Shown in pieces: positions 3,101 to 23,475 of a stretch of 26,710 nt of DNA (position 1 is its first letter; every line of letters starts with the position of its first letter). The notes below the pieces were generated by a model, which saw only the letters and a program-made list of their open reading frames with translations, had not been told where the DNA came from and ran no database searches. Source of the stretch: Dunaliella salina (Eukaryota > Chlorophyta > Chlorophyceae > Chlamydomonadales > Dunaliellaceae); the NCBI GenBank assembly GCA_002284615.2, contig MU070599.1, positions 32,042 to 58,751 on the forward strand, given 5' to 3'. A program made the position numbers and the translations under genes.

Positions 3101-3693
3101 TCTGCCTGCAGGTCAGAACCTTCTGCACCATCGCTGCTGCTGCTGCTGGCACCAGAGGCCTTCTATTGCCCGTCAGCACCTTCACTGTCACTGCATTATT
3201 GCCTCTGCCTGCAGGTCAGCACCTGTGGCGCACCTTCCCAGCGTCGCGGGCCGCGCGCCCGTGGTCGCGCGCTTTTCGCCTGTGCTGTACGCCCTGCTGC
3301 CCCCCACCTCCCCCAACAACCATCACCACCATTGCCAACACCTGGTGCCGGTTGCCTCAAACAAGCAAGAACAGCAGCTTCAGCAGCAGCACCAGCAGCA
3401 GCACCAGCATAACCAGCAGCATATCATCCAGCATGACCATATCATCCAGCAGCAGCAGCAGCAGCCCTCGCACAAAGCAGCGCCACTCTCTGAAAGGTGT
3501 CCATCTTTGGAGGAAGGCCAGCAAGGGAGTGGGGAGGGAAGTGAGGGTGGCAGTGCCGGGAGTGGTGGTGGTGGGGCAACCCCTGCAGGGGTCTCCCCCT
3601 TCATGCTGCCATACCGCATGGTGCTGGCGGTGGCCACCTTGAACAGCGTCCTGGTGTATGACACGCAGGTGTTCAATGCATGGATTTGTGTGC

Positions 3694-3778
<85 letters not shown>

Positions 3779-4552
3779 GTCCTTGCAACAAGGAGGAGTC
3801 GGGAAAGCACAACCTCGGCTTCCAGGTCCTTTCTTTTGCATGTGTTCTGGTTCCTTTCTGATAAAGATCCATGTCTTTCAAAGCCTTTTTGTCGGTGCTG
3901 CTTGGCAGGCTGGGCACGGCACTTTCTGCTGACTCCTTTCTATGCAGCACAGCATTTGGTTTCACTGCCTTCCACCAACTCTGTCTACAGATTAGTGGCT
4001 TATCAATCCTCATCTGGAGCCTCAAGCTTCTTGTTCTGCTTAGAGGGCTTTGCGTAGCTCCTCCTCCCACATTGTTTACGCACCTCTGTCGAAATTGCCC
4101 ATCTCCATTTCCGCATTTCTGACACCGGCCTCTCATCATCCACGCCCCTCTGTCTGTCATCATGGCCCCCTCATCACTGTTTTGCAGTCATGTCAATCCC
4201 CTGATCACTTAAGCTTTGTTTGTTGTCATCACCCCCTCATCATTAATGCATGCCTGTCATCTCCCTCATCATCAGTGCCTTCTATCTGCCGTCATTGCAT
4301 GCAGAGCTCGAAGCCTCTGGTGCTGCTAGCAAAGCTACTCCTAACTCCTCACCCTTTGTCATTCTGCCTATTGTGTCATCGCCGCCTCATCGTTTACACG
4401 TGCCTGTCACCTCCCTTCATTTTTCATGCATTCTGTCTGCCGACATTGCATGCAGAGTTTGAAACCTCTGGTGCTTCTGGGAGGGCTGCACATGGCTCCT
4501 ATCACGGACTTGGCGTGGAGTGCCGATGGCTGCAGCTTGGCAGTGTCTTCAC

Positions 4553-4637
<85 letters not shown>

Positions 4638-7600
4638 GCGCTTCAGCTTTCTCTCCAGGAGCCAACAAATTTGTAAATGCCGATAACTGCAGCTTGGCGG
4701 TGTCTTCACAGGTGTGCTTGTGCGATGCACTTAACCTGGCTTTCCAGGAGCCAAAAGATTTTTAAAAGCCAAGCGTTGGTGTGCGGGCGCTCAATCAAGC
4801 TTTGCAGGAGCCACGCATCTGTGAACGCCTTCATTGCATTGTGTTTGGGTAGGATGGCTATTGCAGCTTGGCAGTGCTGGAACCATGGGAGCTCGTTTTA
4901 TTTCCGATCTAACAGATTTCTTTTGCCTTGAAACCGAGCAGCCAAACTATTTAGCTGTAGGTCGCGGCCTCAATGTTGTGTAATGCAATGTAATAAAATG
5001 TGATGTAATGAAATGTAATCAAACATGGGTCCCATGCCATTTTTTTTTGTTTTATTGCTTTTTCTGGGCACTCCCTTGCATTCCCATGAGCTGTTCAGCC
5101 ACTCACGTTCGATACACCAATGTTCTTACACCTGTGCAGGATGGCTATTGCAGCTTGGCCGTGTTTGAACCGGGAGAGTTGGGCACCCCCCTGCAGCCGC
5201 ATGAGCTGCCTAGCCACGTGGCCGACATCATGCAGAGAACGCATGCACACAAATGGGCGGAGCGTTGCCAGCAGCAGGTGTGTTAGAGCCTACCAATGGG
5301 CAAACTACCGGGCATGCAAAATGGGCACACCAATGGGCCAGCCACTGCCTGCAGCAAGTGTGCTGGAGCACACATGTGGGCTTACACAAAAAGGCACCAA
5401 AAATTGGGCACACAAATGGACACGCAATGGACCAAGCATTGACAGCAGCATGTGCACCGTGGCGAAGTAAAGCCCAGAATTTCCGCCGTATCCCTCCTTA
5501 GAATTTTGTGCTGGAGCACACAAATGGGCATACAAATGGGCACACAAGATGGGCACACAAATGGGCCAAGCGCTGTCAGCAGCAAGTGCGCTGGAGCACG
5601 CAAATGGGTGTTCAAAATGGGCGCACAGGAAGTGCATACAGATGAACACGCAAACGGGCAGAGCATTGACAGCAGCAGGTTTCGCGGAGCAATGCGAAGT
5701 CAGTCATTTCCCTCCCAGAACATTCGCATTAGGATAACCAGAAAAAAAGGTTATTTATGGTTTCTTTTCCTTTTTTGAAGTATGCAAGATGTAAGCATGG
5801 TGTGTGGAAAGAAAGTGCCTAGTTTTGGGAATGGGAACTGGTCCTTAAGTGGAGCTGTGAGCCTGTTCTGGTGATCTGAGGCCGGGAAAGTGATCTGGGA
5901 GATGGAAATTGTCTATTATTTTTCGAACACGTTAAATTTCCGGTGAACGTGGCATTGTATGAAGTTGTACAGGCTTGCAGGGTGTGTTTGTGAAGAAAAG
6001 CGAGGAGGAGAATTTCCAGCAGTGAGAGGGGTTTCAGAGGGCCCCAACTCATGTATGCAACTTTGAACTGCTATAGCTTTGCGCCCGGCTATGTTACCAG
6101 GATGAAAAGGAATGCGTTGAAAAGATGTTTTATGGCTTTTGTTAACACTGCTTTTTGTCCTGGTACCATAGCCGGGCCCTGATCTAGGCCTGGTCAATGT
6201 TTGGCTAGAAATCCGGTCAAACCTCAGAATTTCAACCCCAATTTCTGAATTTAGGCAGGAGGCACCAGTGAGCATAACTTTTGGACGTCATCACCAAAAC
6301 CACATAAAAACTATATATTCGGAATCCTGAGATCGAGAGGATTCGAATGATATATGTATGAGTCCAATCGGAGAGGGTCGTTGGTGGGTGGTCCCTCAGG
6401 GGGGTTTCGAGTTTTTGGGACCCCCCCTCCAGAATTTTTCTGGGGCACTTTCTCGAAATTCTAAATATATTTTCGGAATCCTGAGCTCGAGAACTGTCCA
6501 TTGGCACCCTCTTTGAGGAAATTGGGCAAATTGGGGGGTCTCTGTGCATGGAATAGAGTCAATGCCACATGGGCATGGGTGTGGGTTGCGGGGGGTGCGA
6601 AGGCAAGCATGCAGCAAACAAATCCAAACTTTCAAGGTAGTGGCAATGTATAATAATTCCTTGCACAGCGAAGTCAGAAGGCTATTTGGAGGACTTGCAG
6701 GCCATTTGTGGGTGCCCAGAAGGGCAGGCTTGCATAGGCGTCCGCTCCTCAGTTTTTGCCCCATAACTCTGCTCCAAGTCAATCTTTCACTTCCTTAAGT
6801 ATGCAGATGGATAGGAAATTTTAAAAGGAGCAGATTGGTACCCTTTTTGGCCCAAGGGGAGAAGTATTAGGGGGGGTGGGGGGGTGGGTGGTCCTTTTCA
6901 GCCTCCAGCCCAACTTTTTGTGATGACGTTCACTACTTTTTTTTTTTTACCCTCCTGATTTAGGCCTAAAAATGATAGAAAAGATTTTTTATCCAAGAAA
7001 TTTGAATAAAAGCTCCTGGGAAGTGCTCCTTGAGTGACAACGGAGGTGAGGGCTTTGAGGTCCACCTGGCCTCCCAGGCCTTCTCGCCCACCCTGACCCA
7101 GCCAAGCCAACAATTGACCCCATTTCTTTTGCAATGGTGTCTGCTATATCACTGCTACACACCTGAGGCAAAGTTTGGCAAAATGGAATAGGGTGGAAAA
7201 TTCTCAATGTTCACCACATTGCCCCTTTTTTCCCCTTTTTGAGCACCCTAGCATACACACCAAGCCGATTCTCCGATTCTCCCACAACTTTTTTTTGTAA
7301 GGTCATGGCCTTTTCATCATAGAAAAGGGCTGCACAAAAAAAAAAAATTGGGGACAGGGTGGCCAGGGTGGCTCAGAAAAGTTTTCTGTGACAGAAACCC
7401 CAAAAATGGCCAAGTGAGGACCTCCTGGAGAGGTTTGCCCATTTAGGCAATCGTGCCATTTGGTAGTGTTGCCCTCTACATTGAGGGAATCTTCATGAGC
7501 CTCACCTTCCGTCTGGGCTTCCTGTGCAACATGGGCTTGGAAATCAACGCATGGGGCCACCCTTTGATGCCCTTTTGTAGGTCATTCTGTAGCTTTCTGT

Positions 7601-8700
7601 GGCTGACCAGTGGGTTGCAGGTACCTGTAATCAGTAGCAAACGGTCTAGTTTGGTACTGTCTACTTGTCGCGTTTCTTTTTGCCCATGGGACGCAGACAG
7701 GCGCACAGCAACAATGGCATCTTGTTCGATGCTCTGCTTGTGGGTCTGGGCTGGGAGCGCGGGGCTTGGCATACATGCCGCCACTCTTCTGTTGTAGCAC
7801 ACCTTCACTAACCCACTTGCGCCCTGTACCATGGCTCCGTCCATCGAGGCGTGTAAATGCCCTGCCTGCTTGAGCTGAGCCTGCACTGGGCACTCTGTGC
7901 CTGCGGACTCCAGCCTGTGCCCTGTGCCACCTTGGCTCCGTCCATCGAGGCATGCTGTTTGCTATCTTCATTCTTCATGTCTTTTGTTTGCATTGTTGGT
8001 GCTCTGTGATTACCTGCAGCAGTGCACGCGTGTTAGGAGGGCTGCGGCTTGAGGCGTGTCAATGCCCTGCCTGCATGCACTCAGCCTGCACTGAGCGCTA
8101 CCTGCCTTCATTCTTCCAGCCTGTGCCCTGTGCCACTTGTAGGCCCTGTCCAGCCTTTGCCCTGTGCTACCTTAGATTCTATCCGTCTTGCCTGCAAATT
8201 CCCAGCCTGTGCCCTGTGCCACCTCTGGGCTCTACCCATCCAGGCATGCTCCTAACTTATGCCCTTCGTGCTTGCTGCAAGTGAACACAATGTTGGGATG
8301 ACAAAATGTGGGAATGTTTGCGAACAGAAAATTGGGACGTGTAAGTCCCTGGAGCGCCTTTTGAAAGAGGTCTGAGATGGGACCAGAAGGCCTCCACTGT
8401 GCGTTTTGTGCCTGCGCCAAGCACAACATCGTGCCCCCTCTGGGCACTACCCATCCAGGCATGCTCCTGAGTAATGCCTGTCCTACTTGCTGCCAACCCG
8501 CTTTGTGTTTTACGGTGTTTTAGCTGCCAACCTGCACTGCGTGTTACTGTGTCTGCACTCAGATCCATCTTGATCCCACCAAGAATGACATAGTGCCTGC
8601 TTGCCTTGTGCCTACTTGATTCCCACAGGCTGCAGCCAAAGCAGCTGCGAAGCAGCACCAATACAGCCAGCACCAGCAAAACCAGCAGCAGCAGCAAAAT

Positions 8701-8732
<32 letters not shown>

Positions 8733-9574
8733 GCAAGCTCAGACAGGCATGGAGTCAGGGCACGCCCACGGCACTCAGCCAACGACACCCGCAACCTTTT
8801 GCCCACCTGGTGCCACAAGCAGCCATTACGCCCCTGTCCTGCCACCAGCACCACGCCAACCTCCCTCAACAGCAGCACCTCCAGCAGCAGCTGCTGGCTC
8901 CGCACCTGCTAGTGCTGCTGATGTTGGTGGTGCTGCTGGTGCTGCTGCTGCTTCTGCAGCCGTGCCCAGGCGGACCACACCAACACCAGCACCTCCAGCA
9001 GCACCAGCAGCTGCCAGTCCTGCACCTGCTAGCTCTGGTGCTGGTGTTGGTGGTGCTGCTGGTGCTGCTGCCTCTCTTGCAGCTGGACCCAGGCGGATCA
9101 CACCAACAGCAGTACCTCCAGCAGCACCGGCAGCTGCTGACTCTGGACCTGCTAGCGCTGCTGCTGCTGATGGTGCTGCTGGTGCTGCCGCCGCTCCTGC
9201 AGCCGGACCCAGGCGGATCACACCAACACCAGCACCTCCAGCAGCACCTCCAGCTGCTGGCTCCGAGCCAGCTAGCGCTGCTGCTGCTGCTGCTGGTGGC
9301 GGTGGTGGTGGTGGTGGTGCTGCTGCTGCTGCAGCTGCTGCTGCTACTGGTGCTGCTACTGGTGCTGCCACTGCTACTGCAGCCGGACCCAGGCGGATCA
9401 CACCCGTGCAGGTGCAGCGGAGCAACAACGCACCACCACCAGCACCTTCAACAGCCACCTCGACTCAGGCACCTAGCACAGCAGGGGCTCCGCCGGGGTG
9501 CTTACCCACGTCAGCTGGCAGTGCAGCTGCTCCTGAGGTAGCTGGCTTGCAGCTGCAGCCTCAGCCTCAGCAGG

Positions 9575-9634
<60 letters not shown>

Positions 9635-10377
9635 CACAGCCTCCCGCGCGGAGGCGGATCGTGCCAATGCCTGTGAGCAGCCCACCCTCTCAGCACATCC
9701 CTCACCCGATTCCTGCTGTACCTACAGCAGCCGGACCAGCAGCACCAACAGCAGCACCAGCAGCAGTACCAGCACCTTCGCCAGCACCACAGGCTGCAGC
9801 ACCAATAGCAGCACCAGCAGCACCAGCACCACAAGCAGCAGCACCAGCAACAGCAATGAAGCCACCAGATTCGTCCCCGCATGTCACCGGCAGTACTGCA
9901 GGAGCAGCAGCAGCAAGCCCGAAGGTGCCTGCAATGAAAATGGCTCCAGCACATGCAGCACCCTCAGAAGCTGCGGCACCTGCTCCAGCAGCAGCAGCAC
10001 CCCCCTCAGCTGCAGCACCAGGAACATCAGCAGCAGCCCCTTCTTCCACAGTTGCTCCAGCAGCACCATCACCCCCCTCAGCTGCAGTACCAGGAACATC
10101 AGCAGCAACCCCTTCTTCCACAGCTGCTCCAGCAGCACCAGCACCCCCCTCAGCTGCAGTACCAGGAACATCAGTTGCTCCCCCTTCTTTCACAGCTGCT
10201 GCAGCAGCACCTGCTCCAGCAGCACCAGCACCAGCGCCAGCAGCACCAGCGCACTCTCCCCGACTGTCACTGGCAGCCCTCGCAGCACAGGCAGGCAGGC
10301 AGCAAGCTATCAAGCGCAGCCAGCAGCAGGCAGCCCTGGCAGCAGAGGAGCAGGGCAAGAGGCAGCGTGCACAGTGA
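1..10377 (+). CDS. FAS2: Chromatin assembly factor 1 WD40 subunit (CHAF1B/p60/FAS2-like), 3' part, five exons
   Basis: This is the middle subunit of the CAF-1 histone chaperone, which deposits H3-H4 on replicating or repaired DNA in the nucleus. The exons are 1-102, 3215-3668, 4456-4554, 5140-5277 and 8629-10377. Intron phases are 2, 0, 0 and 0, every junction is GT-AG, and the joined frame is open to TGA at 10375-10377 (about 846 residues). Segments match the family in order: TTYIFARGDW, SAPVAHLP..GRAPVVARFSPV, LPYRMVLAVATLNSVLVYDT, then ITDLAWSADG joined to DGYCSLAVFEPGELGTPL. These are the last WD40 blades. The N-terminal blades lie upstream of the window. The C-terminal tail is far longer and more repetitive than I know from plant or animal homologues. 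The family call is confident from memory of human and Arabidopsis proteins. The exact splice choices are inferred and have no transcript support. Confidence 0.88.
585..710. repeat. Minisatellite, about 10-bp unit AAGGTGCGTA
   Basis: About a dozen near-copies of AAGGTGCGTAA or AAGGTGTGTAA stand in tandem, with slight length variation. The array is inside the first intron. Confidence 0.9.
1080..1335. repeat. Degenerate tandem repeat, unit about 60-70 bp
   Basis: Phrases such as TAGCCAAGCAG-CAT, CAACCATACTAGC and ATTCCAACATGG recur three or four times in the same order with many substitutions, indicating an old tandem array. Confidence 0.6.
1553..2196. repeat. Higher-order minisatellite, about 61-bp monomers alternating A/B
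   Basis: About ten copies of a roughly 61-bp unit containing GGCCACTGCTGCC, TGAATGCAGGCC and CCCAACAGTTG. Monomers alternate strictly between an A form (GTTGTTGCTCCC) and a B form (GTTGGTGTGCCC), at about 1597, 1659, 1720, 1780, 1841, 1904, 1966, 2029, 2091 and 2150. The true period is therefore a dimer of about 123 bp. The long minus-strand frames here are repeat artefacts. Confidence 0.9.
2419..3214 (+). repeat. Minisatellite of splice-acceptor-like units ending at the real exon
   Basis: Units of about 45-50 bp contain CACCATC-CTCCTCTGCCTGCAG followed by GTCAGCACCTTCTG. Each carries a pyrimidine tract plus CAG. A longer module (about 200 bp) with GGCGCACC, CATGTTGCTGGCACCA and GAGGC-TTCTGTTGC recurs near 2790, 3005 and, in part, 3120. 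The last CTGCCTGCAG/GTCAGCACCTGTGGCGCACC is the genuine acceptor and start of exon 3215-3668. Confidence 0.85.
3215..3668 (+). CDS. FAS2: FAS2-like exon with low-complexity insert in the propeller
   Basis: The exon opens with SAPVAHLP, continues through VVARFSPVLYALLPP, and closes with FMLPYRMVLAVATLN and SVLVYDTQ. Both ends are conserved CAF-1 p60 strands. Between them sit about 100 residues rich in Gln, His, Gly and Ser, including Q-H runs and a Gly-rich stretch. In human and plant proteins, as I recall them, this loop is short and acidic. The acceptor CTGCCTGCAG/G at 3214 is the last copy of a repeat array (see 2419-3214). The donor CAG/GTGTTC is at 3669. Confidence 0.85.
3695..3777 (+). 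repeat. (TG)n microsatellite, 83 bases
   Basis: Uninterrupted TG dinucleotides lie 26 bases inside the intron that starts at 3669. Confidence 0.98.
4456..4554 (+). CDS. FAS2: FAS2-like exon, WD40 blade
   Basis: The 33 codons read SLKPLVLLGGLHMAPITDLA then WSADGCSLAVSSQ, a canonical WD strand of CAF-1 p60. The acceptor is TTGCATGCAG at 4455. The donor is CACAG followed immediately by an 82-base (GT)n tract. Both flanking introns are phase 0. Confidence 0.87.
4555..4636 (+). repeat. (GT)n microsatellite abutting a splice donor, 82 bases
   Basis: Uninterrupted GT dinucleotides begin exactly at the donor after CACAG at 4554, so the 5' splice site is the first GT of the tract. Confidence 0.98.
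4644..4880 (+). repeat. Decayed tandem copies of exon-end sequences
   Basis: CCAGGAGCCA modules recur near 4653, 4743 and 4806. The first is followed by GATAACTGCAGCTTGGCGG and TGTCTTCACAGGTGTG (4681-4716), nearly the end of exon 4456-4554 plus its donor. At 4852 GATGGCTATTGCAGCTTGGC repeats the start of exon 5140-5277. The copy at 4681 would form a 53-nt exon, which would break the frame, so I treat these as intronic pseudo-exons. Confidence 0.75.
4979..5018 (+). other. Cluster of four TGTAA motifs in an intron
   Basis: TGTAA occurs at 4979, 4989, 5004 and 5014. TGTAA is the usual polyadenylation signal of chlorophycean algae. Here the motifs lie upstream of exon 5140-5277, inside the gene. 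Confidence 0.6.
5140..5277 (+). CDS. FAS2: FAS2-like exon, end of last WD40 blade
   Basis: The 46 codons begin DGYCSLAVFEPGELGTPLQP and end ADIMQRTHAHKWAERCQQQ. DGYCS..FE..ELG is a signature of this subunit. The acceptor is CCTGTGCAG at 5139 and the donor CAG/GTGTGT at 5278. Reading through the donor gives a stop after two codons, which supports the splice. Confidence 0.87.
5240..5735 (+). repeat. Tandem copies of an exon 3' end and its donor
   Basis: About five diverged units of 80-110 bp contain CACAAATGGGC, GCAGCAAGTG and CTGGAGCACAC. The founder is the end of exon 5140-5277 (ACACAAATGGGCGGAGCGTT followed by GCCAGCAGCAG/GTGTG). Later copies lie near 5332, 5410, 5560 and 5650. Confidence 0.8.
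5278..8628 (+). other. FAS2-like large intron
   Basis: A 3.35 kb intron. After the exon-derived array (to 5735), bases 5736-7800 look like dispersed non-coding sequence. A short repeat TATTCGGAATCCTGAG-TCGAG occurs at about 6317 and 6472, and there are several A/T and G homopolymers. I see no recognisable exon. Bases 7800-8540 are degenerate repeats (separate entry). Confidence 0.7.
7800..8540. repeat. Degenerate tandem repeat in large intron
   Basis: Blocks recur with substitutions: AGCCTGTGCCCTGTGCCAC, GGCTC-ACCCATCCAGGCATG, GGCTCCGTCCATCGAGGC and GCGTGT-AATGCCCTGCCTGC. Examples are at 7829/7930, 7850/8056, 7912/8118/8205 and 8228/8445. Confidence 0.65.
8629..10377 (+). CDS. FAS2: FAS2-like terminal exon: Ala/Pro/Gln-rich tail with repeated ASF1-binding-like motifs
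   Basis: The exon follows TTCCCACAG at 8628 in phase 0, giving QQQ/AAAKAAAKQHQYSQ, and stays open for 582 codons to TGA. Contents in order: a Gln/His run (about 8653-8733); a roughly 40-residue Ala/Pro/Gly repeat carrying R-R-[IT]-T-P (8968, 9091, 9211, 9391); a 19-Gln run (9577-9633); RRRIVP at 9649-9666; three 24-residue Ala/Pro/Ser repeats (10000, 10072, 10144); and an Arg/Gln/Ala tail. RRI-x-P resembles the ASF1-docking B-domain core of HIRA and CAF-1 p60. The tail is probably disordered. That this exon belongs to the same gene rests on phase and strand and on the Gln-rich continuation; cDNA is lacking. Confidence 0.75.
8845..9405 (+). repeat. In-frame 40-residue coding repeat with R-R-x-T-P
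   Basis: The motif RR(I/T)TP begins at 8968, 9091, 9211 and 9391, at spacings of 123, 120 and 180 nt, all multiples of three. Each is preceded by GPR or VPR and followed by Pro-rich PTPAPPAAP. Between motifs lie Ala/Gly runs, written on this strand as GCT/GGT codons. Confidence 0.9.
9577..9633 (+). repeat. CAG/CAA run encoding 19 Gln
   Basis: A near-pure CAG tract in frame within the terminal FAS2-like exon. Confidence 0.95.
10000..10215 (+). repeat. Three 72-bp in-frame repeats
   Basis: PPSAA[AV]PGTS begins at 10000, 10072 and 10144, an exact 72-nt period encoding 24 residues per unit. Confidence 0.93.
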
Positions 10378-10800: not shown

Positions 10801-11018
10801 CGGTGATCTTAACCATGGCTGGGCAAGGGCAAGGGGGATGGTGTTTCGGGGGCCTTTGTGTGCACGAGGGGTCTGGGCCGCCCGTTCTGGAGGTCCAGCG
10901 CCTAAGGGGATGGCAAGGGAAATTAGGCGGATTTTTGCCTGGGCTGTCCCGTGTTTGACCTGCTGGTCCGTCACGCCCACAACAGCTCAACACACCTGGG
11001 GTTAGGGGATGCAGGCTC

Positions 11019-11023
11019 TGTAA
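11019..11023 (+). terminator. Likely polyadenylation signal TGTAA of the FAS2-like gene
   Basis: TGTAA lies about 640 nt after the stop, followed by an A-rich stretch. It is the green-algal consensus. I saw no TGTAA closer to the stop. Confidence 0.55.
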
Positions 11024-11745
11024 GGAAAAAAAAAGACCGGGTCAGGGCATGAGGCATCTGGGCCTAGGGGCTTCTTTTCAATAAGGGGCAGGAAACGGCG
11101 CACCCTGATTTCAGTACTTTTTCTGTTGAGTTTGTACGGAAGAATAAAAGGAAAAGAAGAAGCATGTCACAGGAGGAAACTAAGCAGGTTCCATGTGGCT
11201 CCTCTTTTTTGGACATTTCTTGCGAGGCCCTGTAGCCAAGCTTGGCACAAGAAAAATCAATGTAAGTGTGGCATTCCTTCATACCTATGCAGTGCTTTTC
11301 CATTTCAGTAGGAGGGTCCATGAAGCACTGGAGCGATCAGTTTCCACAGGTTGGCAAGTTTGTTTGAAAAACAAGAAGCCATCAATCAAAATGCTTGACT
11401 GCTAGGCTATGACTTAGAAAAGCAGTAAGTACAAGGTTCAAAGCTTGTGAAGGAAATGTACACTGGGTGTTTTGCTGTTCATTTAATGTAGCACATAAAG
11501 ACCAGGCAGCTGTGTGACAATGCAGCAGAAGGAAAAGACTGGAACGATCAGTTACCACAGACCAAACATTGCGACCGTCTCTGTGACATGTTGATCAATT
11601 AAGTGCCCTAGTAGTATCCGCTGAGTCGACACTAAAGTGCCCTTAACCGTCCGAATTTTCCATCAAGCTTTTAGGATCTGGAAAGAAGAATTGCCTTGTG
11701 ACTGATTCAATGCCAAGATTAGTTTAGCTTGATTTTTAAATCATG
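11024..11745. other. Intergenic, nothing recognised
   Basis: A/T-richer sequence without a convincing exon, RNA gene or repeat. Confidence 0.5.
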
Positions 11746-11749
11746 GGGT

Positions 11750-11880
11750 TTTGGCCTTCAGCCAGGTAGTTTGACTGCTCAGCCTGCTGGATTTTTTTTG
11801 CCGTCCATTTTGTGCAAGATGATGGTCCTCATTGCGAACCTCGGAATGGCGATCGGAATGGCGATGGTCCTCATTGCAAG
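11750..11880 (-). mobile_element. Short relic of LINE family A 3' end
   Basis: GGCCTTCAGCCAGGTAGTTT at 11753 matches the 3' end of the copies at 11913 and 21401. Bases 11821-11880 carry a doubled GATGGTCCTCATTGC. The relic is too short to translate. Confidence 0.55.
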
Positions 11881-11891
11881 ATTAGGTTAGC

Positions 11892-12504
11892 TTAAATTAG
11901 GTTACATAGGTGTTGGCCTTCAGCCAGGTAGTTTGACTGATGAGCCAGCTGGTCCCTGCCAGCCTCACAAAAAACGTCCATAATATCAGGTACGAACTTG
12001 TACAACTGGTTTGACTCTTGATTCAAAAAATGGAAAACGTCCTCATTACTAACCACAGTACAGTAAAAACCAGAAACACCAAGGGAAATTCTTGCTTGTG
12101 GCGAAGCTTCAAAGAAAAGATGTGCATAATTGTTTCGAATAGCACACACACTTTCACAGTTGCAAAGGAAAAGAGAATGTTTCTCGTCTTGCAGATCATT
12201 CAAGGTTGCAGGGATGACAGAAATGAGGCATTCAGTCAAGACGCGCGACTGATCGTAAAAAGAAACAATGTCGTGAAAAAATGAGTTTGTTATTGTCTTG
12301 TTGCAGGAAAGCGATCACATTCCTGAGCCTCGCAATGAGTGTATAATCCCTATAATCCTTATTAAAGCTCATTATTGCTTTGATTTTGGAAGTCCTCATT
12401 AAAAACTTCGGAATGAAAACCAGTCTAACAAAAAAAAATGCTTGTGGAAAAACCTGAGGAAAAAGATTATAATGTCGGAGTGACCATGTCTGGTACCCGT
12501 TCAA
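11892..12504 (-). mobile_element. LINE family A relic: C-terminal end of RT protein
   Basis: The minus frame 12239-11892 reads LQDEKHSLFLC ... NNYAHLF ... FLNQ ... NYLAEG. This parallels the C-terminus at 21710-21387 (WQDEKHVIFLC ... KYAHIF ... FFQNQ ... NFLAEG). An adjoining frame (12504-12232) continues upstream. It is truncated and frameshifted, with no RT core left. The homology is by eye between two parts of this window. Confidence 0.65.
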
Positions 12505-12859
12505 ATTGGACCATCGGGTTTTGAGGATTTGAATCGCCTCAGAACCGCTTTATGACTGATTCAATACCATGATTATGCAATCAGATTGACGATACATGAT
12601 ACACATTCACATTGGACCACCAGGCTGTCAGGTTATAGGCCCCAGGTGCATTATTCACATGCATGACTGAGCTTGTTCATTCAAAACATTTTGGTGCAAT
12701 GTCATTGCAATGCAATGTAATGGAATGCAAATGTAAGCAATGAATGAAAATACACGCTTCGCAAGCTGCACGGGTGGAACCCAGGTCCGTTGTGTGTGCT
12801 TTACTGTGTGCGTGCTGTAGTGTGCCGTGACACTGACCAAAGTGCACTTAGGCACGTGC

Positions 12860-13372
12860 CTAACACAAGTGTCTGACCTAAGTGTCTGACCTAAGTGTCT
12901 GACCTAATTGTCTGACCTAAGTGCCTGAGTGTCTGACCTAAGTGTCTGACTTAAGTGCCTAAGTGTCTGACCTAAGTGTCAGACCTAAGTGTCTGACCTA
13001 AGTGTGTGCGTGCCGTAGTGTGTGCGTACTGTAGTGTGTTGTGACACTGACCTAAGTGCCTAGCACAAGTGTCTGACCTAAGTGTCTGACCTAAGTGTCT
13101 GACCTAAGTGCCTGACCTAAGCGCCTGACCTAAGTGTCTGACTTAAGTGCCTGAGTGTCTGACCTAAGTGTCTGACCTAAGTATCTAACCTGAGTGTCCA
13201 ACCTAAGTGCCTGACCTAAGTGCCTGACCTAAGTGTCTGACTTAAGTGCCTAAGTGTCTGACCTACGTGTCTGACCTACGTGTCTGACCTAAGTGCTGAC
13301 CTAAGTGCTGACCTAAGTGCTGACCTAAGTGCTGACCTAAGTGCTGACCTAAGTGTCTGACCTAAGTACTGC
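12860..13372. repeat. Minisatellite, 14-bp unit AAGTGTCTGACCTA, first array
   Basis: More than 30 tandem units with variants AAGTGCCTGACCTA, AAGTGTCTGACTTA and a shortened AAGTGCTGACCT block near 13290-13350. Confidence 0.92.
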
Positions 13373-13926
13373 TAGCTACACTGCCATGCTGCCACACCTG
13401 AGTTTGAAGGCCCTCCGTCCTGGCCCAACTGTGTTTCAGCACAGGATTCTGTTCCTTGAGGAACGCAGCTTACTATTACTGACTCAATTACTTTTACAAC
13501 TGTACTGCACGAGTGCTACGTCGCTGACGACCCGCGTTCACAGTTCGCAGTGCCGTGCAGTGTCTTAAGTGTATTACTACACTTTACTTCATCACTTTTA
13601 AAACTTTTCTGTTCAATCGTTGTCCGCTGCCTCGCGTCCCTGCTTTCCGTTCAGGGTACCCCGCACCCGCCCATGCACAGTGACCCGCGTCATAGCATTT
13701 ACATAGCAACGTTCCTGAGTGTTCATTCAACGTTCTCACGTCCGTGCGTCCTCTGTTCAGCGTCCCCCCGTTCATCTGCTGACTCGCTCTCGCGTCTCGT
13801 GCAAGTTTGACTTTGGGACAGTGGTTTCTGTTGAGCCCTGCTATATCTTTACTACAGCGTCAGAGTGGCCCGTTGCAGTTTGCACGCGATCCGACAGCTT
13901 GGTCCGTATGGCCCCTGGCCCCTCCG

Positions 13927-13979
13927 GGGCCTGGGTTCCAATACACGCTTCGCAAGCTTCGCGGTTGGAACCCAGGCCC
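13927..13979. other. 15-bp perfect inverted repeat at macro-repeat junction
   Basis: GGGCCTGGGTTCCAA (13927-13941) and TTGGAACCCAGGCCC (13965-13979) surround a 23-base spacer. Just upstream, GGCCCCTCCGGGGCC (13916-13930) is another palindrome, conserved in copy 2 as GGCCCCTGCGGGGCC (14821-14835). Confidence 0.85.
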
Positions 13980-14019
13980 GTTGTGTGTGCTTTACTGTGT
14001 GCGTGCTGTAGTGTGCCGT

Positions 14020-14240
14020 GACACTGACCTAAGTGCCTAGCACAAGTGTCGGACCTAAGTGCCTGACCTAAGTGCCTGACCTAAGTGTCTGACTTAAGTG
14101 CCTGAGTGTCTGACCTAAGTGTCTGACCTAAGTGCTGACCTAAGTGTCTGACCTAAGTGTCTGACCTATGTGTCTGACCTAAGTGCCTAGCACAAGTGCC
14201 CAGCACAAGTGTAGTGTGCTATGACACTGACCTAAGTGCC
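14020..14240. repeat. Minisatellite, same unit, second array
   Basis: About 14 units of the same AAGTGTCTGACCTA family in the second macro-repeat copy. Confidence 0.9.
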
Positions 14241-15072
14241 TAGCATAAGGCAAAAGTATGAGACAAAAGCATAAGGCATACGTGTAAGGCAAGAGCACGC
14301 AGCAAAATAAAAGAAACATGCGCAAAGCGAGGTTCTAACCCCGAATCACGAAGTACCTCAACAACTTGACCAAGCATGCTAAACCTAAGCACAGCTTACA
14401 CTTGCAGTTTTTCTTAGTAATATAATAATTATTTGTCACAACTGCCACGCCATTGATGGCCGTGTTCACAGTCTACAAACCTTACTTCCTTAATTATAGA
14501 ATTGAATAATCATCCTGTACAAACGCTGCCCGCTGTTTCGCGTCCCTGCTCCGTTCAGGGTACCCCACGTACGCCCATGCACGGGAGTTTGCGTCATAGC
14601 ATTTACATAGCAACTTTTCTGAGTGTTGACTTTACGTTCCCACGCCTTTGTTAACTCTGTTCAACGTACCCGAGTTGATCTGCTGAATCGCTCTCGCGTC
14701 TCGTGTAGGTTTGACTTTGGGACAGTGATTTCTGTAGAGCCCTGCTGTGTCTTCACTGCAGCGTGAGAGCGTCCGATGACAGATTCCACGCGATCTCACA
14801 GCGCGTTCAGTATGGCCCCTGGCCCCTGCGGGGCCTGGGTTCCAATACTGCACGCAAGCAGTGCAGGCAACATGCATGCCTTCAGTGTTCATTGCAAGAT
14901 AAAAAACTAGCAGCGCATGTATGTGTTTGCCCTGCAGCATCCTTGCATTCATGCTTAAAATGAGTTGCTACACATGGAGGATAGTGCTAATGCATGTGCC
15001 ATGTTTGAAGCTGCAAAGTCAAGGTTTACATTCTGTTGAGCAGGCATGCATGGTAAAATAAATTGGACTAAC

Positions 15073-15451
15073 CTAAACAGGACTAGGAATCCTAGATGCA
15101 TAGCATTTAATCGGAAATGCTTCTTTTTTTGGAATTTTGTTAAGTTCTTGCAAGGAGTTCATGGGGAATGGGTAGCACAGTGGTGCAGTAGGGCAGGCAA
15201 GACGCATGCCTATATTGTTTAGAACAAGGCACTTAACAGGATAGATAACATGAACCTTTAGTGCAAGCATTTGAAGCATAGTCAACAAGTTGATTGGTAC
15301 GCTTTTGAGGAAGCATGCTTGCTTGGCCTGGCGATGTGAGAGCAGACTCTTTGGGTTCAGTGGGCATGAACAAAGCAAGTGCTAGGGTGCAAGAGTTGTA
15401 GAAGGCTGAGCCCTGATAGGGGCATGCATGTGCAAGTGGGTGCAAGTTCAA
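15073..15451 (-). mobile_element. Possible LINE family B RT fragment
   Basis: The minus frame 15378-15073 includes CPTAPLCYPFPMNSLQELNK, resembling IPSIAYAFPVTPCSLANLEH of the family B RT at 24187-23960. Both precede a basic region. The fragment is short and decayed, and the match is weak. Confidence 0.35.
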
Positions 15452-15491
15452 TGTGCAAGTCGAGGTGTACTTTCTTGGTTGGATTTTTAAC

Positions 15492-15926
15492 TCATCTCAT
15501 ATTGTTGAAACTGCGCTGACACATTGCTGACGAAGACGGATTACCTTTAGTTCTACCAGATTTGTTCACAATCAGACACTTATACCTCCTAGCCTCCAAA
15601 AATGCAGGGCCGTCAACCACAATGTCAGAATGAGCATCACTCAATTCATTCAGCACTCCCACGTGAGCATTGAAGTCACCACAAAGCAGGGATTCGTGAT
15701 ACGCATATTTCAAAGCCCAAACGCATATTTCAAAGCCCAAACGCTCGCCCAACACGGAAGTCTGACGTGGCAGGAAATTCAGCCCCTTCAATGACAGAAG
15801 CTGAAATACAAGAACAAAAGCAAAACATAAAATGTGTCCAGGACATAGAACAATCGAAACGTCAAGCTCTGACCCCTGAACAACTCTCCAGTCCCTCGTA
15901 GCACCATATCGCTCCAAAGTTATCAA
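15492..15926 (-). mobile_element. LINE APE-type endonuclease fragment
   Basis: The minus frame contains HESLLCGDFNAHVGVLNELS followed by a region ending EARRYKCLIVNKSGRT. GDFNAHVG is the conserved GDFNA block of the apurinic-endonuclease-like domain of non-LTR retrotransposons. Only this C-terminal part of the domain is recognisable and no RT follows downstream, so it is a truncated copy. A 20-bp direct duplication (CGCATATTTCAAAGCCCAAA) at about 15703-15742 sits just upstream of the motif. Confidence 0.7.
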
Positions 15927-16040
15927 AGTTGCGCTGGGATCACGAATTTAACTTTGCTGTAAAAACACTAAAGGAAAAGCTGCTACACGCGCAGCCGTCC
16001 CCACAAACCTCGCCCAACACGGAAAGCCCCACCCCAACCG

Positions 16041-16080
16041 CAAATTTCTAAGAGAAATTTGAAAATTTCTTAGAAATTTG
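16041..16080. other. 12-bp perfect inverted repeat
   Basis: CAAATTTCTAAG (16041-16052) and CTTAGAAATTTG (16069-16080) form an A/T-rich hairpin with extra inner pairing (AAATTT/AAATTT). It lies near the presumed 5' side of the LINE fragment. Confidence 0.8.
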
Positions 16081-16430
16081 GGGAAACCAAGATTATGAAA
16101 CCAGAATGACAAGGCATGGTTTTTGGACCATCGTTGTTGGAACCTGCTAGGCTGGGGTTTAGGGCTAGTGCTTTCTAGGCTAAAATGCATGCTCAGTAGA
16201 AGCACCCCTCTTTCTGCTTAAGAGTGACCCTGGTGCTCAGTGCTTCATAAGGAGAGTGATCATGCAGTCCCATGCTCTGCTGCATGTTTGACGGCATGCC
16301 TGCGCCCGATGGTGTGCTGTCTGACACTGCCTCTGTGCATTCACAGACTTTGTTGAATCCACGCATGCATGTGCCTATCTATAACACACACATACACGCA
16401 CTTGCGTGCACGCACGCTCTTGGCTTGCAG

Positions 16431-17833
16431 GGACGCTGACTTTGGACACACCCGCAAGGGCCTGAACGCTGTGCCCACAAAGGGGATCACCAAGGCGTAC
16501 CTCAAGGGGGCGCGGGTAGGTGGAACATGCCCTGTTGAGAGGGTGGTCCTTATGAGGGGCGGCGCCTTTGTTGAAAGTTGTTGCTTCCCTTTTACTCCGC
16601 ATGCGGTAAAGTTAACCTTCCTAATCATTAGGTTATAAGGTAATGTTTGCTAAGTGAATGCAAACCTGCATGGCCCTTCAGGAAGAGAAAATGCAGGTAT
16701 TGTGATCTATGGTAACCCACACTGCTCTTATATAAGTTCAATGCTGTGTGTTGTGAGCTAGCACCTGTTTTAAGCCAGGCCATCACAGCCCAAGGCAAAC
16801 AGGCTGTTGCATTGATGTATGTGCATGCAGCAGTGCGCTCACTCCTTGTGCACTCCCCCATTGTTGTTCGCGCACCTGCAGAGTGGGGCAGGAGGAAGCT
16901 TCCTGCGGTGTTTCACGGTGCTTGGAATGGATGAGTACCACACCACGAAGCACTGCTTCAGGTGTGGGCAGCCATCCAAGCGCCACAAAGTGGGACACCC
17001 TGCCTCAGGCGGGACTTCAGACACCCAGCGTGACAGCATCAGGTGTGTACCATGCCTTTGCTGTGCCCTTTGCGTAGCTCCCTTCTCCGGTCTGCTGCTC
17101 ATCATCTGGCAAAAGATCAAGGGTGCTGAGAGCTCAGTTTGCCCTACAATCCACACACAGCTTTGCACAGCTTTGAACTTCTTTTCCGTTCGCGCTTTCC
17201 TTTTAGCAACAGCCGTCGCGCGCTCAGCCCTATGCTTTTGATCTAGTTGCGTATTTATTGCATGCTGTGCCAAGACACGTGCAGCAAACGGCACTTGACT
17301 GCTCTGTTCTTGCTCGCAGGCTGCGCTCATGTGCGAACTGCACAAAAATAATGAGCAAGCAGCATGGCTGGAGCGCTAGGCGTGTGCTGCGCCCCTGGAC
17401 CGTGGACAGGGATCTGCAGGTAGGCGCCTGCCAATTAAAAAGGGGGGGGGAGGGGCCCAAGATCCTCTTCCAAAAGAAGGAGAAGTATAAGTATAAAAGA
17501 TTAGCTGCAACTATCTAAGACACATGATGAAGAGGCAGGAATCAGGACGTTTGCAACCCAGGCAATTCATGAGGTGGAGGGGTCACCGAGCTATAACAAA
17601 GTGTGGAGAATGGATACGTACTTCACAACATGTTGACGTTGCCATGCCGTGCAAGCTAGCAAGAGCAAGAGGTCTGGAATCGTCCATTTCTTAGACCAAT
17701 CACCCTTGTGTACTTCCTCTCTCAGGGAGCCTGGAACATGGCCCTGCTTGGAGTGGCGTGGGCAGGAGGACAGCCCCGGCCACGTCACCTGGCGCGCCCA
17801 AGGGAGCTGGGCCTGTGGCCCAGTGCTTTTTAG
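16431..17833 (+). CDS. Fanzor (eukaryotic TnpB-like nuclease) C-terminal half, four exons
   Basis: Exons 16431-16515, 16882-17042, 17320-17419 and 17726-17833 join in phases 2, 0, 2, 0 with GT-AG borders, no internal stop, and a final TAG. The product reads DADFGHTRKG...PTKGITK, then LGMDEYHTTKHCFRCG, then RLRSCANCTK, then RPWTVDRDLQ/GAWNMALLG...PRPRHL. This is the order of the Fanzor/TnpB/IS605-OrfB C-terminus: G-D-x-x-F, D-E-[FY]-x-T-[ST]-K-x-C-x-x-C, C-x-x-C, then W..DRD..A.N.. (RuvC-III). Zinc-ribbon Cys codons are at 16954, 16963, 17330 and 17339; the RuvC-III Asp is at 17411. Fanzors are RNA-guided DNA endonucleases carried on mobile elements. RuvC-I and RuvC-II parts were not found in the window, so the gene may be 5'-truncated or have distant exons. 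Splice sites are inferred. Confidence 0.78.
16516..16881 (+). other. Fanzor intron
   Basis: Donor CGG/GTAGGT, acceptor CGCACCTGCAG, phase 0. No other feature is seen in it. Confidence 0.7.
17043..17319 (+). other. Fanzor intron within the zinc ribbon
   Basis: Donor CAG/GTGTGT, acceptor TTGCTCGCAG. The split codon AG+G gives Arg. The intron separates the two CxxC pairs. Confidence 0.72.
17420..17725 (+). other. Fanzor intron after RuvC-III Asp
   Basis: Donor CAG/GTAGGC, acceptor TTCCTCTCTCAG, phase 0. It follows the DRDLQ codons. Confidence 0.72.
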
Positions 17834-17855
17834 GGCAATTTCAAACATCATGCTT

Positions 17856-17914
17856 GGGCAGACTGCCCTGCCCCTTGGCCTGCACGTATGTGCACCTGCA
17901 CATATGTGCAGGCC
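17856..17914 (+). other. Hairpins just after the Fanzor stop (candidate guide-RNA scaffold)
   Basis: GGCCTGCACGTATGTGCA (17877-17894) and TGCACATATGTGCAGGCC (17897-17914) pair over 18 positions, one being G-U, across a CC linker. The core 17895-17912 is an 18-bp perfect palindrome. Immediately upstream GGGCAGACTGCCC (17856-17868) makes a small hairpin. In published Fanzor and TnpB systems the guide RNA comes from the 3' end of the element. The structure is seen; the function is inference. Confidence 0.5.
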
Positions 17915-18047
17915 CATCAGAGAAGAAATTTGGGCCTGCGGGCTCGCCGCCTTCTTGTTACATTCCTACCATCTATTTGACTGATCGTTCCCCAAAGTGG
18001 CCGAACAAGTCTGATTACAAGAAATTCCACTGTTTATAATACGAAAT

Positions 18048-18052
18048 TGTAA
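18048..18052 (+). terminator. Likely polyadenylation signal TGTAA of the Fanzor gene
   Basis: TGTAA lies 215 nt after the Fanzor stop codon. Confidence 0.55.
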
Positions 18053-18575
18053 TGTATGTCATGGAAATGGTCGCAACGTCCGATGGTTCCAACAGACTAT
18101 TCTCTTGTTCTTACAACTCCATGCCTTCAATTAAGAAAGTTCAGGCTCCTTTTGACCGGTGTTTCCGCTCAGCTGCCCATGTAGAAAGATATAGCGGTGT
18201 AACTTTACCTCTTGCTTCTTTTCTCTGGCTTCCTAGCACTCAGAGTAGTACGTTTTCAATGATTCAGATTTTTACCTTACAACTCTTAAGCTTTAAGTAG
18301 TTCAGGATGTCTCTTTTCTTACCAAAAGTAAGGCAGCGAGACATTTTCAAAATCCTATCTCATGGCTTTTTTCATCAACTTGGATTGAAAGGATAAGCTC
18401 CGCAGGCCTAACCATCTCAAGCATTGAAGGAGAGAGGTCATCATGGGTGCAAACTCTGGGGAGAACCCCCATTGCCACGAAACCTTTATGTAGCAGCTTA
18501 ACATCCCGTTAAAATTCCTAATGTAACATTAAGGCACCTGTAGCATGCTGCACGCACGATCAAGCCTAGGGGATC
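18053..18575. other. Intergenic, nothing recognised
   Basis: No convincing exon or repeat; it leads into a LINE relic. Confidence 0.45.
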
Positions 18576-18579
18576 TAGC

Positions 18580-18815
18580 TGGCTGCACACTGCATTCATT
18601 GACTTCAAGCAAGCCTACGACACCACGTCTAGGAAGGCACTCTGGTAGCACCTTCGGCGCACACGCATGCCCACTCCTTTCTTGTCCATCATTAAAAACA
18701 TGTACGATGCTGATGAGTGTATTTTGAAGGATGGAGGGAAGACTGCTCGGGTGAACCACATGAATTTTGTAAGAGGGATGCCCCTTGTCCCCTCTGCTTT
18801 TCTAAACAGTAAAAG
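18580..18815 (+). mobile_element. LINE family A RT fragment, plus strand
   Basis: The plus frame reads HTAFIDFKQAYDTTSRKALW, a TAG stop at about 18646, then HLRRTRMPTPFLSIIKNMYD and ADECILKDG. This parallels AAFIDFKQAYDTIPRDALW and ILKNIYDNDEYILVDG of the minus-strand RT at 23459-22338. It covers only the first catalytic-Asp block of the palm. It is a decayed fragment in the opposite orientation. Confidence 0.75.
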
Positions 18816-21386: not shown

Positions 21387-23440
21387 TTACAAGGGAATAT
21401 AACCTTCAGCCAGGAAGTTTGGCTGCTCGGTGTGATGAAAGAAATCCACAAGCTCAGAGATGAAGCGATAAGTCTGAGTATCTTGGTTTTGAAAGAAACG
21501 AGCTACATCCAAAGAGCAAGCATCAGAAAAAAAGAAAGATCCCGTATCACTTGACACTATTCTGTGAGCAGGAAAGGCACTAAAAATATGTGCATACTTT
21601 CTTCTAAGACAACACAGGAAGTTGCAAGGACAAAGAAAGATGACGTGCTTTTCATCCTGCCATTGTTCTGAAACACATAAATCACATTGCGGTGCACAGG
21701 TCCATGCCAATGAGAAGTTTCAACTCGGAGTTTATGGGCGTGCAATCGGAAGCAAGCAATGTTCCTCTGCATATGCCTACCCAAATCTAAATGCAGATAC
21801 CTAGGAGTATGGAGTGGTTTACCAAGAGCAGAATTATGCCGGAAGGGAAGCGCTACCCAGTCATGGTACTTGGCTAACTTGTTTAAATGAGCTCCATGTT
21901 CAGCATGATCCTCAGATGGCCACACGCTCCTATGCCTGTTCCTTAAATCAACCACAAAATCATTTATCCTAATGGGCTGGCCTGCATACACACAATGTGT
22001 GAAGTAGTTGCGCCTGTCTAATCCCTGAAAAGCAGATATAAACTCTGACGGCCAGCACTTTCTAGAGTTACTACTCATGTCAATATCCGCTCCAAGCACC
22101 CTACGTAAAGTTGTGCTGTTGCAGGCAAGTGAGGCATTTTAAAATCTGACAGCAGCTCGAAACCAATAGAATTGTAATGGTTCAAACCCACATTCACGCA
22201 ACACATACCAATTTGGTGTAGTCTTTTTCACTCCGAGGATTCGCTTTAGTAAACACAGGTGCACAGTCTGCAACGGGCAGGTCATCTCATCTCCTGGTCT
22301 CATAAACCTGGTACCCCAAATTTGACTAGCATACATGCTAGCAGGGAGCATATGTCTTAGTCAACCACAGCATGGTATGAGGCCTATCTGCTAGCTTATA
22401 TTCATCTGCAATGTGCCTAATACCCCGACATCCAGCCAAGAAAGGTGCACACATATGCTCAGAAGGGGCAAGGGGGTTAAATTGTTTCGTAAACAGCATA
22501 CCCAAATATTTGAATGACTCAGCACGCACGAGCTGCTTGCCACCTAGGTTGAACATAGGAACATTATTTCCTTTTGAATTGAAGGACGCAACCTCAGACT
22601 TCGACACATTGATAATTAAACCTTTCCTTTGCGCATACCCATGTAACCTATCCAACATGCGCTGAAGCTCAATGGGATGATTAGTAGTGAGGCAGAGGTC
22701 ATCCGCATACAACATGTGAGTTACATGAAAATCTTCAGCACCAGTAACTGCACCGCAAACATTCTCTGCCAGGCAGTCCACATCATTAATATACAAGGAA
22801 AATAGCAGTGGGGATAATGGACAGCCTTGCTTAACCCCTAATCTAGGATGCACATGTGCTCGCTTACACCCATCCACCAGGATGTATTCATCATTGTCAT
22901 AAATATTTTTCAGGATAGCCAGCAAGCAAGATGGCATGCGAATGCTTTGAAGATGAGTCCAAAGAGCATCCCTAGGTATTGTATCGTAAGCTTGCTTGAA
23001 ATCAATGAAGGCTGCATACAACCTTGGTGAGGAATGAGGGACCTTCATCTGTGCCCCATGCTGCAGATGACACAATATAAATATTGGCTGCAGGGTGTTA
23101 CGGCCTGAGTTAAACCATGTATCTGGAATATTGTTGTTCTCTCTGCAACACCTTGTAACAACGTATCGAATCACATTTGCATAGATCCTGTACATGATAT
23201 CGCTCACAGCAAGCATGCGGTAGTTTGCAGGGCCTAGCAGAGATCCCTTTTTACGTAAGGGAGTAAGTTTTGCTGCTTTCCAACATGCAGGAATCTCGGC
23301 CTTCTCCATCATGGCAGCAAACAAACGAGCAACATATGGTGCCAAAACATTGATCCTGTATGTACCTCTACCATTTATTGCAGGGGAATAGTCTACCTCT
23401 GGGGAATAGTGTACCTTTGGGGAATAGTGTACCTCTGGGG
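21387..23440 (-). mobile_element. LINE family A reverse transcriptase, 5'-truncated
   Basis: The main minus frame runs from about 23440 to 22338. RT blocks in order: WKAAKLTPLRKKGSLLGPAN, YRMLAVSDIMYRI, AFIDFKQAYDTIPRDALW, GVKQGCPLSPLLFSLYINDV, HMLYADDLCL (catalytic YADD), then NVSKSEV and FKYLGMLF. The downstream frame 22351-22139 has the thumb-like MYASQIWGTRF. Frames 22099-21557 and 21710-21387 carry the Cys-rich end (CAPQCDLCVSE...FLC) with a frameshift near 21700. A LINE endonuclease is absent here; a fragment of one lies at 15492-15926, possibly from the same family. Likely inactive. Confidence 0.88.
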
Positions 23441-23475
23441 AATAGTGTACCTCTACCATTTATTGCAGGGGATAG
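23375..23475. repeat. Short tandem repeat at the junction of two LINEs
   Basis: GGGGAATAGTGTACCTCT recurs four times (about 23385-23455). It is flanked by two copies of CCATTTATTGCAGGGGA (23371 and 23456). Family A RT homology ends on one side and family B on the other. Confidence 0.85.

Follow-up and report, generated by a model that had tools for sequence, protein, structure and literature searches.

The window, a 26,710-nucleotide stretch of the Dunaliella salina genome (contig C1125, positions 32042 to 58751, in the 285-Mb assembly used for own-genome searches), very probably holds the 3′ end of a repeated mobile element with a Fanzor-type gene interrupted by introns, in a copy that has been truncated at its 5′ end. 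The copy occupies positions 16168 to 17958 on the + strand (about 1.79 kb), limits that were set by a start and a 3′ end shared in alignments with other copies. Its spliced C-terminal frame is conserved across copies, which end at a common 3′ point and differ at their left ends.

The gene end lies at 16431 to 17833 and consists of four + strand exons, all with GT-AG introns, that join in frame into 150 residues followed by a stop. Exon 1 (16431 to 16515; DADFGHTRKGLNAVPTKGITKAYLKGAR) probably represents the RuvC-II region, and its donor is GTAGGT in the four other copies that are readable at that site. It is followed by intron 1 (16516 to 16881; 366 bases, GTAGGT...CTGCAG, phase 0). Exon 2 (16882 to 17042) carries the relocated glutamate (MDEYHTTKHC) and the first CxxC, while the second CxxC (CANC) and VDRD lie in exon 3 (17320 to 17419), so that intron 2 (17043 to 17319; 277 bases, GTGTGT...TCGCAG, phase 2) splits the two halves of the zinc ribbon. 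With an alternative in-frame acceptor at 17275, exon 3 would still include CANC and VDRD. After intron 3 (17420 to 17725; 306 bases, GTAGGC...TCTCAG, phase 0), exon 4 (17726 to 17833) runs from GAWNM to a TAG at 17831 to 17833; from its acceptor onward, it is matched by P0001, a short open reading frame (ORF) of a public 888-base contig. The exons have a G+C content of 0.60 to 0.69, compared with 0.48 to 0.52 in the introns, and a GC3 of 0.67 to 0.82.

The joined protein carries DEYHTTKHCFRC, CANC, VDRD, and GAWNM in one frame. A RuvC-II glutamate displaced to a point six residues ahead of the zinc ribbon is described as a trait of Fanzor and TnpB proteins (PMC10711439), and in the joined protein (E46-YHTTKH-C53) the glutamate has the same six-residue spacing to the first zinc cysteine. 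From E46 to D113, the RuvC-III aspartate, there are 67 residues, compared with 65 between E541 and D606 as reported for the Spizellomyces Fanzor1, SpuFz1 (PMC11423790). The published Fanzor/TnpB pattern, [TS][TS]-x-x-C4 zinc finger-x(5,50)-RD (PMC3627910), is present as TT-KH-CFRC ... CANC, with 23 residues from the last cysteine to the aspartate of RD. As described for Fanzor1 proteins of Spizellomyces, Parasitella, and Guillardia (PMC11423790), the joined protein combines a glutamate six residues before the zinc cysteine with a zinc ribbon and RuvC-III. It differs from these three in its second zinc pair, which is CxxC here and CxxxxC in them, and none was matched directly by phmmer.

Profile scores for the joined protein were low. 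The Pfam zinc ribbon PF07282 scored 17.3 bits (E = 0.0054), below its curated cut-off of 26.3, and most of this score came from exon 2, whose ORF by itself scored 11.2 bits. Ten other joins after exon 2 scored 10.5 to 14.9 bits, so the full exon model is the best-scoring join tried, by a small margin; one of the ten had a similar E-value (0.004) to an unrelated family, Pput2613-deam. Alignment by hhalign to three solved Fanzor1 ends extended over just 28 columns, with a probability of 49% and an E-value of 1.7e-4. Against a model built from the same three ends, the joined protein ranked 1st of 20,001 when compared with its own shuffles, its lead over the best shuffle being modest (16.8 versus 15.1 bits). 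The four-exon Fanzor gene end proposed from the letters in an earlier note is borne out in its coordinates, its in-frame join, and its splice sites, which are kept in copies. So is that note's view of the zinc ribbon and RuvC-III aspartate as intact, with CFRC/CANC and VDRD in the spliced frame; the zinc-ribbon profile, which it had named as a check, scored the joined translation below the curated cut-off.

More distant relatives were sought in several collections. No PDB chain matched the joined protein, or a longer version of it, at an E-value of up to 10 (phmmer). Protein searches for a full-length relative gave 168 candidates, none at an E-value of up to 0.01; a second protein search gave one candidate and none at an E-value of up to 10. 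The best NCBIfam hit was to an unrelated family (E = 0.89), a tblastn search of phages returned five records, all with E-values of 2 or worse, and a search of Rfam at the gathering threshold returned nothing usable. Further scans of viral_contigs and a scan of genome_contigs yielded no useful relative. Two candidates were set aside: L001, from viral_contigs, has a 38-residue match within an ORF of a phage-like contig that we read as chance, and the ORFs of L002 have no visible Fanzor features.

Copies of the gene end were abundant in the host genome. The joined protein had 64 matches listed at an E-value of up to 1, and two or more exons were matched as separate pieces (E < 1e-7) on eight other contigs (C118, C734, C60, C1283, C256, C156, C53, and C456). 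Stretches were taken from 13 loci, several of them cut by contig ends, and from one more long copy; five loci matching only the last part of the element (C5, C56, C423, C239, and C237) were left out. Splice-site hexamers conformed to GT/AG at 35 of the 36 sites readable in seven other copies, the single exception being the intron 1 acceptor of L043 (TTACAC). Most copies that can be read at these sites retain the four cysteines, the glutamate, and the aspartate. E46 is present in L041, L042, L043, and L045 and is X in L044; L046 and L047 do not cover the site. In the second zinc pair, L043 has CANW for CANC, and L047 has CASC, with both cysteines kept.

The projected frames of the eight copies compared, with inserted columns left out, contain no internal stop. 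Inserted columns inside exons number 166 in L043 and 49 in L045; L043 also lacks 27 bases of exon 1, and L041 has one gap. The frame is a feature of the family, and the insertions and gaps in L045, L043, and L041 leave no compared copy demonstrably whole. Among six copies, dN/dS was below 1 in all 15 pairs (0.17 to 0.95), although the pairs are not independent and insertions were ignored. Intron differences over the same number of pairs were 0.011 to 0.085, and exons diverged more than introns in 13 of the 15 (for the window and L041, for example, 0.075 versus 0.047). This excess of exon divergence runs against simple constraint. In comparisons with the window, it is most pronounced in exons 1 and 2 of L041, L042, and L043.

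Three further loci, L055, L056, and L057, were chosen from the weaker own-genome matches. Their long ORFs show the motifs in the order seen in the joined protein, and each of the three reads straight through the places of introns 1 and 2. In L057, the place of intron 3 is also continuous, and the RuvC-III part (HRDVNTAWNL) follows unbroken after a low-complexity insert; the stretches of L055 and L056 end before this part. Two colinear segments of L057 matched the joined protein (E = 1e-6 and 4e-6), and L057 scored 26.2 bits against PF07282 (E = 8.7e-6; cut-off, 26.3), while L056 scored 14.9 bits and L055 had no match. Since these ORFs are uninterrupted, they support the three junctions from outside the element family. 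L055 to L057 and similar weaker matches appear as a second Fanzor-like family, with a low-complexity insert rich in Gln, Glu, and Gly between zinc ribbon and RuvC-III; L057 alone could be followed as far as RuvC-III. At L003, L005, and L007 (on C1353, C1055, and C682) there were also long ORFs of the Fanzor2 type that have no introns and carry DPG together with the relocated glutamate; they may derive from inserted giant-virus DNA. The genome contains further PF07282 matches, several of them on the same contigs. A survey of Fanzors was reportedly made by Jiang and others in 2023.

The limits of the element were read from alignments. A probe from the 3′ part of the window (17726 to 18100), with matches of at least 70 bases and only the best candidates retained, placed the element at 18 or more other loci, some of which could be allelic or duplicated contigs. 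Sixteen of the 18 listed loci stop at probe positions 233 to 237, within 4 bases of window position 17958, and 15 stop at 233 or 234, i.e., at window position 17958 or 17959; the exceptions to the common end are C60 (probe position 173) and C423 (223). The shared terminus on the + strand is ...CTTCTTGT at 17958, beyond which the 12 other loci that were read diverge in sequence. Left ends vary among copies, although those of L041, L044, L049, L051, and L052 (5 of the 13 loci fetched) are contig ends and hence uninformative. All four blastn alignments that reach the left end of the window copy (L042, L043, L045, and L054) place it at 16168. A shared 3′ point combined with differing left ends indicates a mobile element with truncated copies, and the retention of introns in these copies indicates that they were not copied from spliced mRNA.

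Among the five copies with readable flanks, a target-site-like repeat was found in one: L053 has a 10-base direct repeat, TTGGATCTTA, at both ends, two bases from the left boundary, and the window copy, L046, L047, and L048 have none at the expected place. L050, with N at its left flank, falls outside this count. Three candidates for terminal features were rejected: a hairpin at 16038 to 16083 lies outside the element, the inverted pair 16032 to 16049/17924 to 17941 is one among 23 such pairs in 3.3 kb, and the boundary at L054 position 2418/L045 position 4465 reflects an assembly gap in L054. The right flank of the window copy (17958 to 18013) matches five contigs (C348, C1143, C289, C1321, and C458), four of them starting at the junction, and the copy may sit inside another repeat.

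Between the stop codon and the 3′ terminus lies a near-perfect palindrome on the + strand (17877 to 17914) with arms of 18 bases; its right edge lies 44 bases short of the end of the element. Both arms are present with at most two base changes in 10 of the 12 other copies compared; of the remaining two, L045 has lost one 16-base unit, and L048 has an altered left arm. The RNA fold of 17834 to 17983 has a z-score of -4.5. The palindrome could be a signal for transposition or could belong to a guide RNA, and the structured tail, as far as its sequence indicates, would fit both roles and proves neither.

Longer copies extend upstream of the truncation point. The exon that precedes exon 1 in these copies (HWPKLK...GAPIVVSL; L045 positions 7798 to 7955) ends with GG followed by GTACGT; in L045, the translation closes with IVVSLGG, and the two bases left over (GG) match the phase of exon 1. 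In its second half, changes at the three codon positions number 3, 0, and 14. DNA of this exon occurs at five places (C256, C1283, C734, C60, and C682) and was absent from contig C1125 in the own-genome search; its peptide was not found in the window, where the best tblastn hit (E = 0.04) was to an unrelated place. A further coding-like stretch in L045 (6494 to 6598) shows nine synonymous codon changes and one other.

The RuvC-I aspartate of Fanzors is nearly always in DPG, 125 to 275 residues upstream. No DPG in a coding context was found in L045 positions 4000 to 8500 or in the first 2,400 bases of L042, and L045 consists of N below position 3670, which bounds the search for RuvC-I in the longer copies. 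A DPG at window position 16226 was rejected as RuvC-I; it would lie in a short frame, no more than about 68 residues ahead of exon 1, and recurs in a noncoding part of L042 and L045. A GLDMG (GLDMN in L045, near 6253), in a region with five synonymous and four other codon changes, was likewise rejected, being out of frame with the following sequence in L054. RuvC-I is missing from the window copy because the copy is truncated. Judged from its sequence, the window copy lacks RuvC-I along with the whole N-terminal half and should be unable to encode a whole nuclease or act as one.

A truncated mobile copy is not the only source from which such a gene end might derive. Open frames, good splice sites, the GC3 of the four exons, and dN/dS below 1 would also be expected of a domesticated Fanzor-type host gene with its 5′ exons farther upstream, beyond a long repeat-filled intron. 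We consider such a gene very unlikely, however: homology with the longer copies does not extend upstream of 16168, the 3′ end is common to many loci, and the preceding exon has its DNA at five places, none of them on C1125, and its peptide nowhere in the window. The interval from 10900 to 16431 does hold three clusters of exon-like composition, defined by thresholds that we set, but two of these overlap a segment duplicated at 13609 to 13944/14515 to 14848.

It is harder still to credit that motif-like pieces came together by chance with no gene behind them. Shuffling the window block-wise by dinucleotides (5,566 shuffles, both strands), with a motif that was partly fixed after the sequence had been seen, produced the spliced E-x2-[TS][TS]-x2-CxxC plus CxxC-x(5,50)-RD 13 times; once extended by xx[GA]AxN, the motif occurred in 0 of the 5,566 and once in the real window. 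Copies keep the splice sites and frames, the relatives L055 to L057 are uninterrupted, and the joined protein outranks all of its own shuffles. Coincidence is therefore scarcely tenable, even though the Pfam score is below threshold and another join has a similar E-value to Pput2613-deam. Function is the only point on which the preferred reading, a truncated copy of a Fanzor-type element, parts from a mobile element whose Fanzor-like zinc-ribbon protein, having no working RuvC-I, either has lost RNA-guided nuclease activity or never possessed it. We regard this last alternative as unlikely; the longer copies have no DPG over their sequenced extent and the Pfam score is weak, but that extent is limited by the run of N in L045, and the glutamate, four cysteines, and aspartate persist in most readable copies.

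Spliced, often 5′-truncated Fanzor1 elements are already known from Chlamydomonas, and Fanzors have been reported in other green algae (PMC3627910, PMC12633428). The Chlamydomonas reinhardtii Fanzor1 elements CRe-1, CRe-2, and CRe-3 are described as having 5 or 10 exons supported by expressed sequence tags (Bao and Jurka 2013, PMC3627910). They are multicopy, nearly all with intact 3′ ends and frequent 5′ truncation, and are classed as Helitron2-type elements, for which copying of DNA from the 3′ end, often stopping early, has been proposed (PMC3627910). The element described here resembles them, by their description and not by sequence alignment, in its multiexon Fanzor gene, many copies, common 3′ end, and frequent 5′ truncation. 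In contrast, many truncated CRe copies are reported to be flanked by target-site duplications of about 7 to 19 bp (PMC3627910), whereas one of five testable copies has such a repeat here. The CRe elements are also described as having asymmetric terminal inverted repeats and a hairpin at each end. Here there is a palindrome near the 3′ end, the copies lack a readable 5′ end, and neither asymmetric terminal repeats nor a helicase came to light in the family; a RepHel protein is reported in autonomous elements related to them (PMC3627910). A Fanzor-encoding repeat is reported to be abundant in the green alga Auxenochlorella (PMC12633428), to which the present element is likewise similar, in a comparison by description only, as an abundant Fanzor-encoding element in a green-algal genome.

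These comparisons bear on the status of the gene. The earlier note had taken the three introns as a sign of long residence in and adaptation to the host, an interpretation that is not supported, with introns that travel with a repeated element and multiexon Fanzor1 elements described in Chlamydomonas (PMC3627910). Its description of this part as not obviously dead applies to the C-terminal frame only; the copy itself is cut at 16168, and the preceding exon was not found on the contig or in the window. Reading four exons from motifs identified the gene correctly but misjudged its status.

By analogy with published Fanzors, the longer copies would encode, or have encoded, an RNA-guided nuclease, and full copies would cut DNA guided by RNA from the structured 3′ end of the element. 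The element may be copied as DNA from its 3′ end and may often stop early, as proposed for CRe-1, CRe-2, and CRe-3 (PMC3627910). The window copy would then yield at most a C-terminal fragment or a guide-like RNA. It is conceivable, although rather doubtful, that the conserved, structured last 130 bases serve as both transposition end and source of guide RNA, in which case truncated copies could supply guides to the nuclease of a full-length copy. With at least 18 other loci, the family lends itself to the question of whether guide RNAs from truncated Fanzor copies serve longer ones.

Elsewhere in the window, positions 2937 to 10377 (+ strand) contain the end of a gene for CAF-1 subunit B, in which Pfam Beta-prop_CAF1B_HIR1 positions 312 to 383 were matched piecewise (E = 9.4e-9 and 1.7e-5; 2e-9 for a typed join), all under the curated cut-off. 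The low-complexity tail of this gene (ORF at 8620 to 10377) has about five RRITP-like motifs, partly as tandem repeats. RRITP-like motifs bind ASF1. Upstream of the element lie the duplicated segment mentioned above and a minisatellite (AAGTGTCTGACCT) at 12749 to 14250. Pieces of non-LTR retrotransposons were found on both sides of the element: an ORF on the - strand at 15492 to 15947 that has no Pfam match and contains GDFNAHVG, which we take to be an endonuclease motif; a reverse transcriptase piece on the - strand at 22338 to 23459 (E = 2.7e-30); and, in the opposite orientation, a reverse-transcriptase-like fragment on the + strand at 18592 to 18734.
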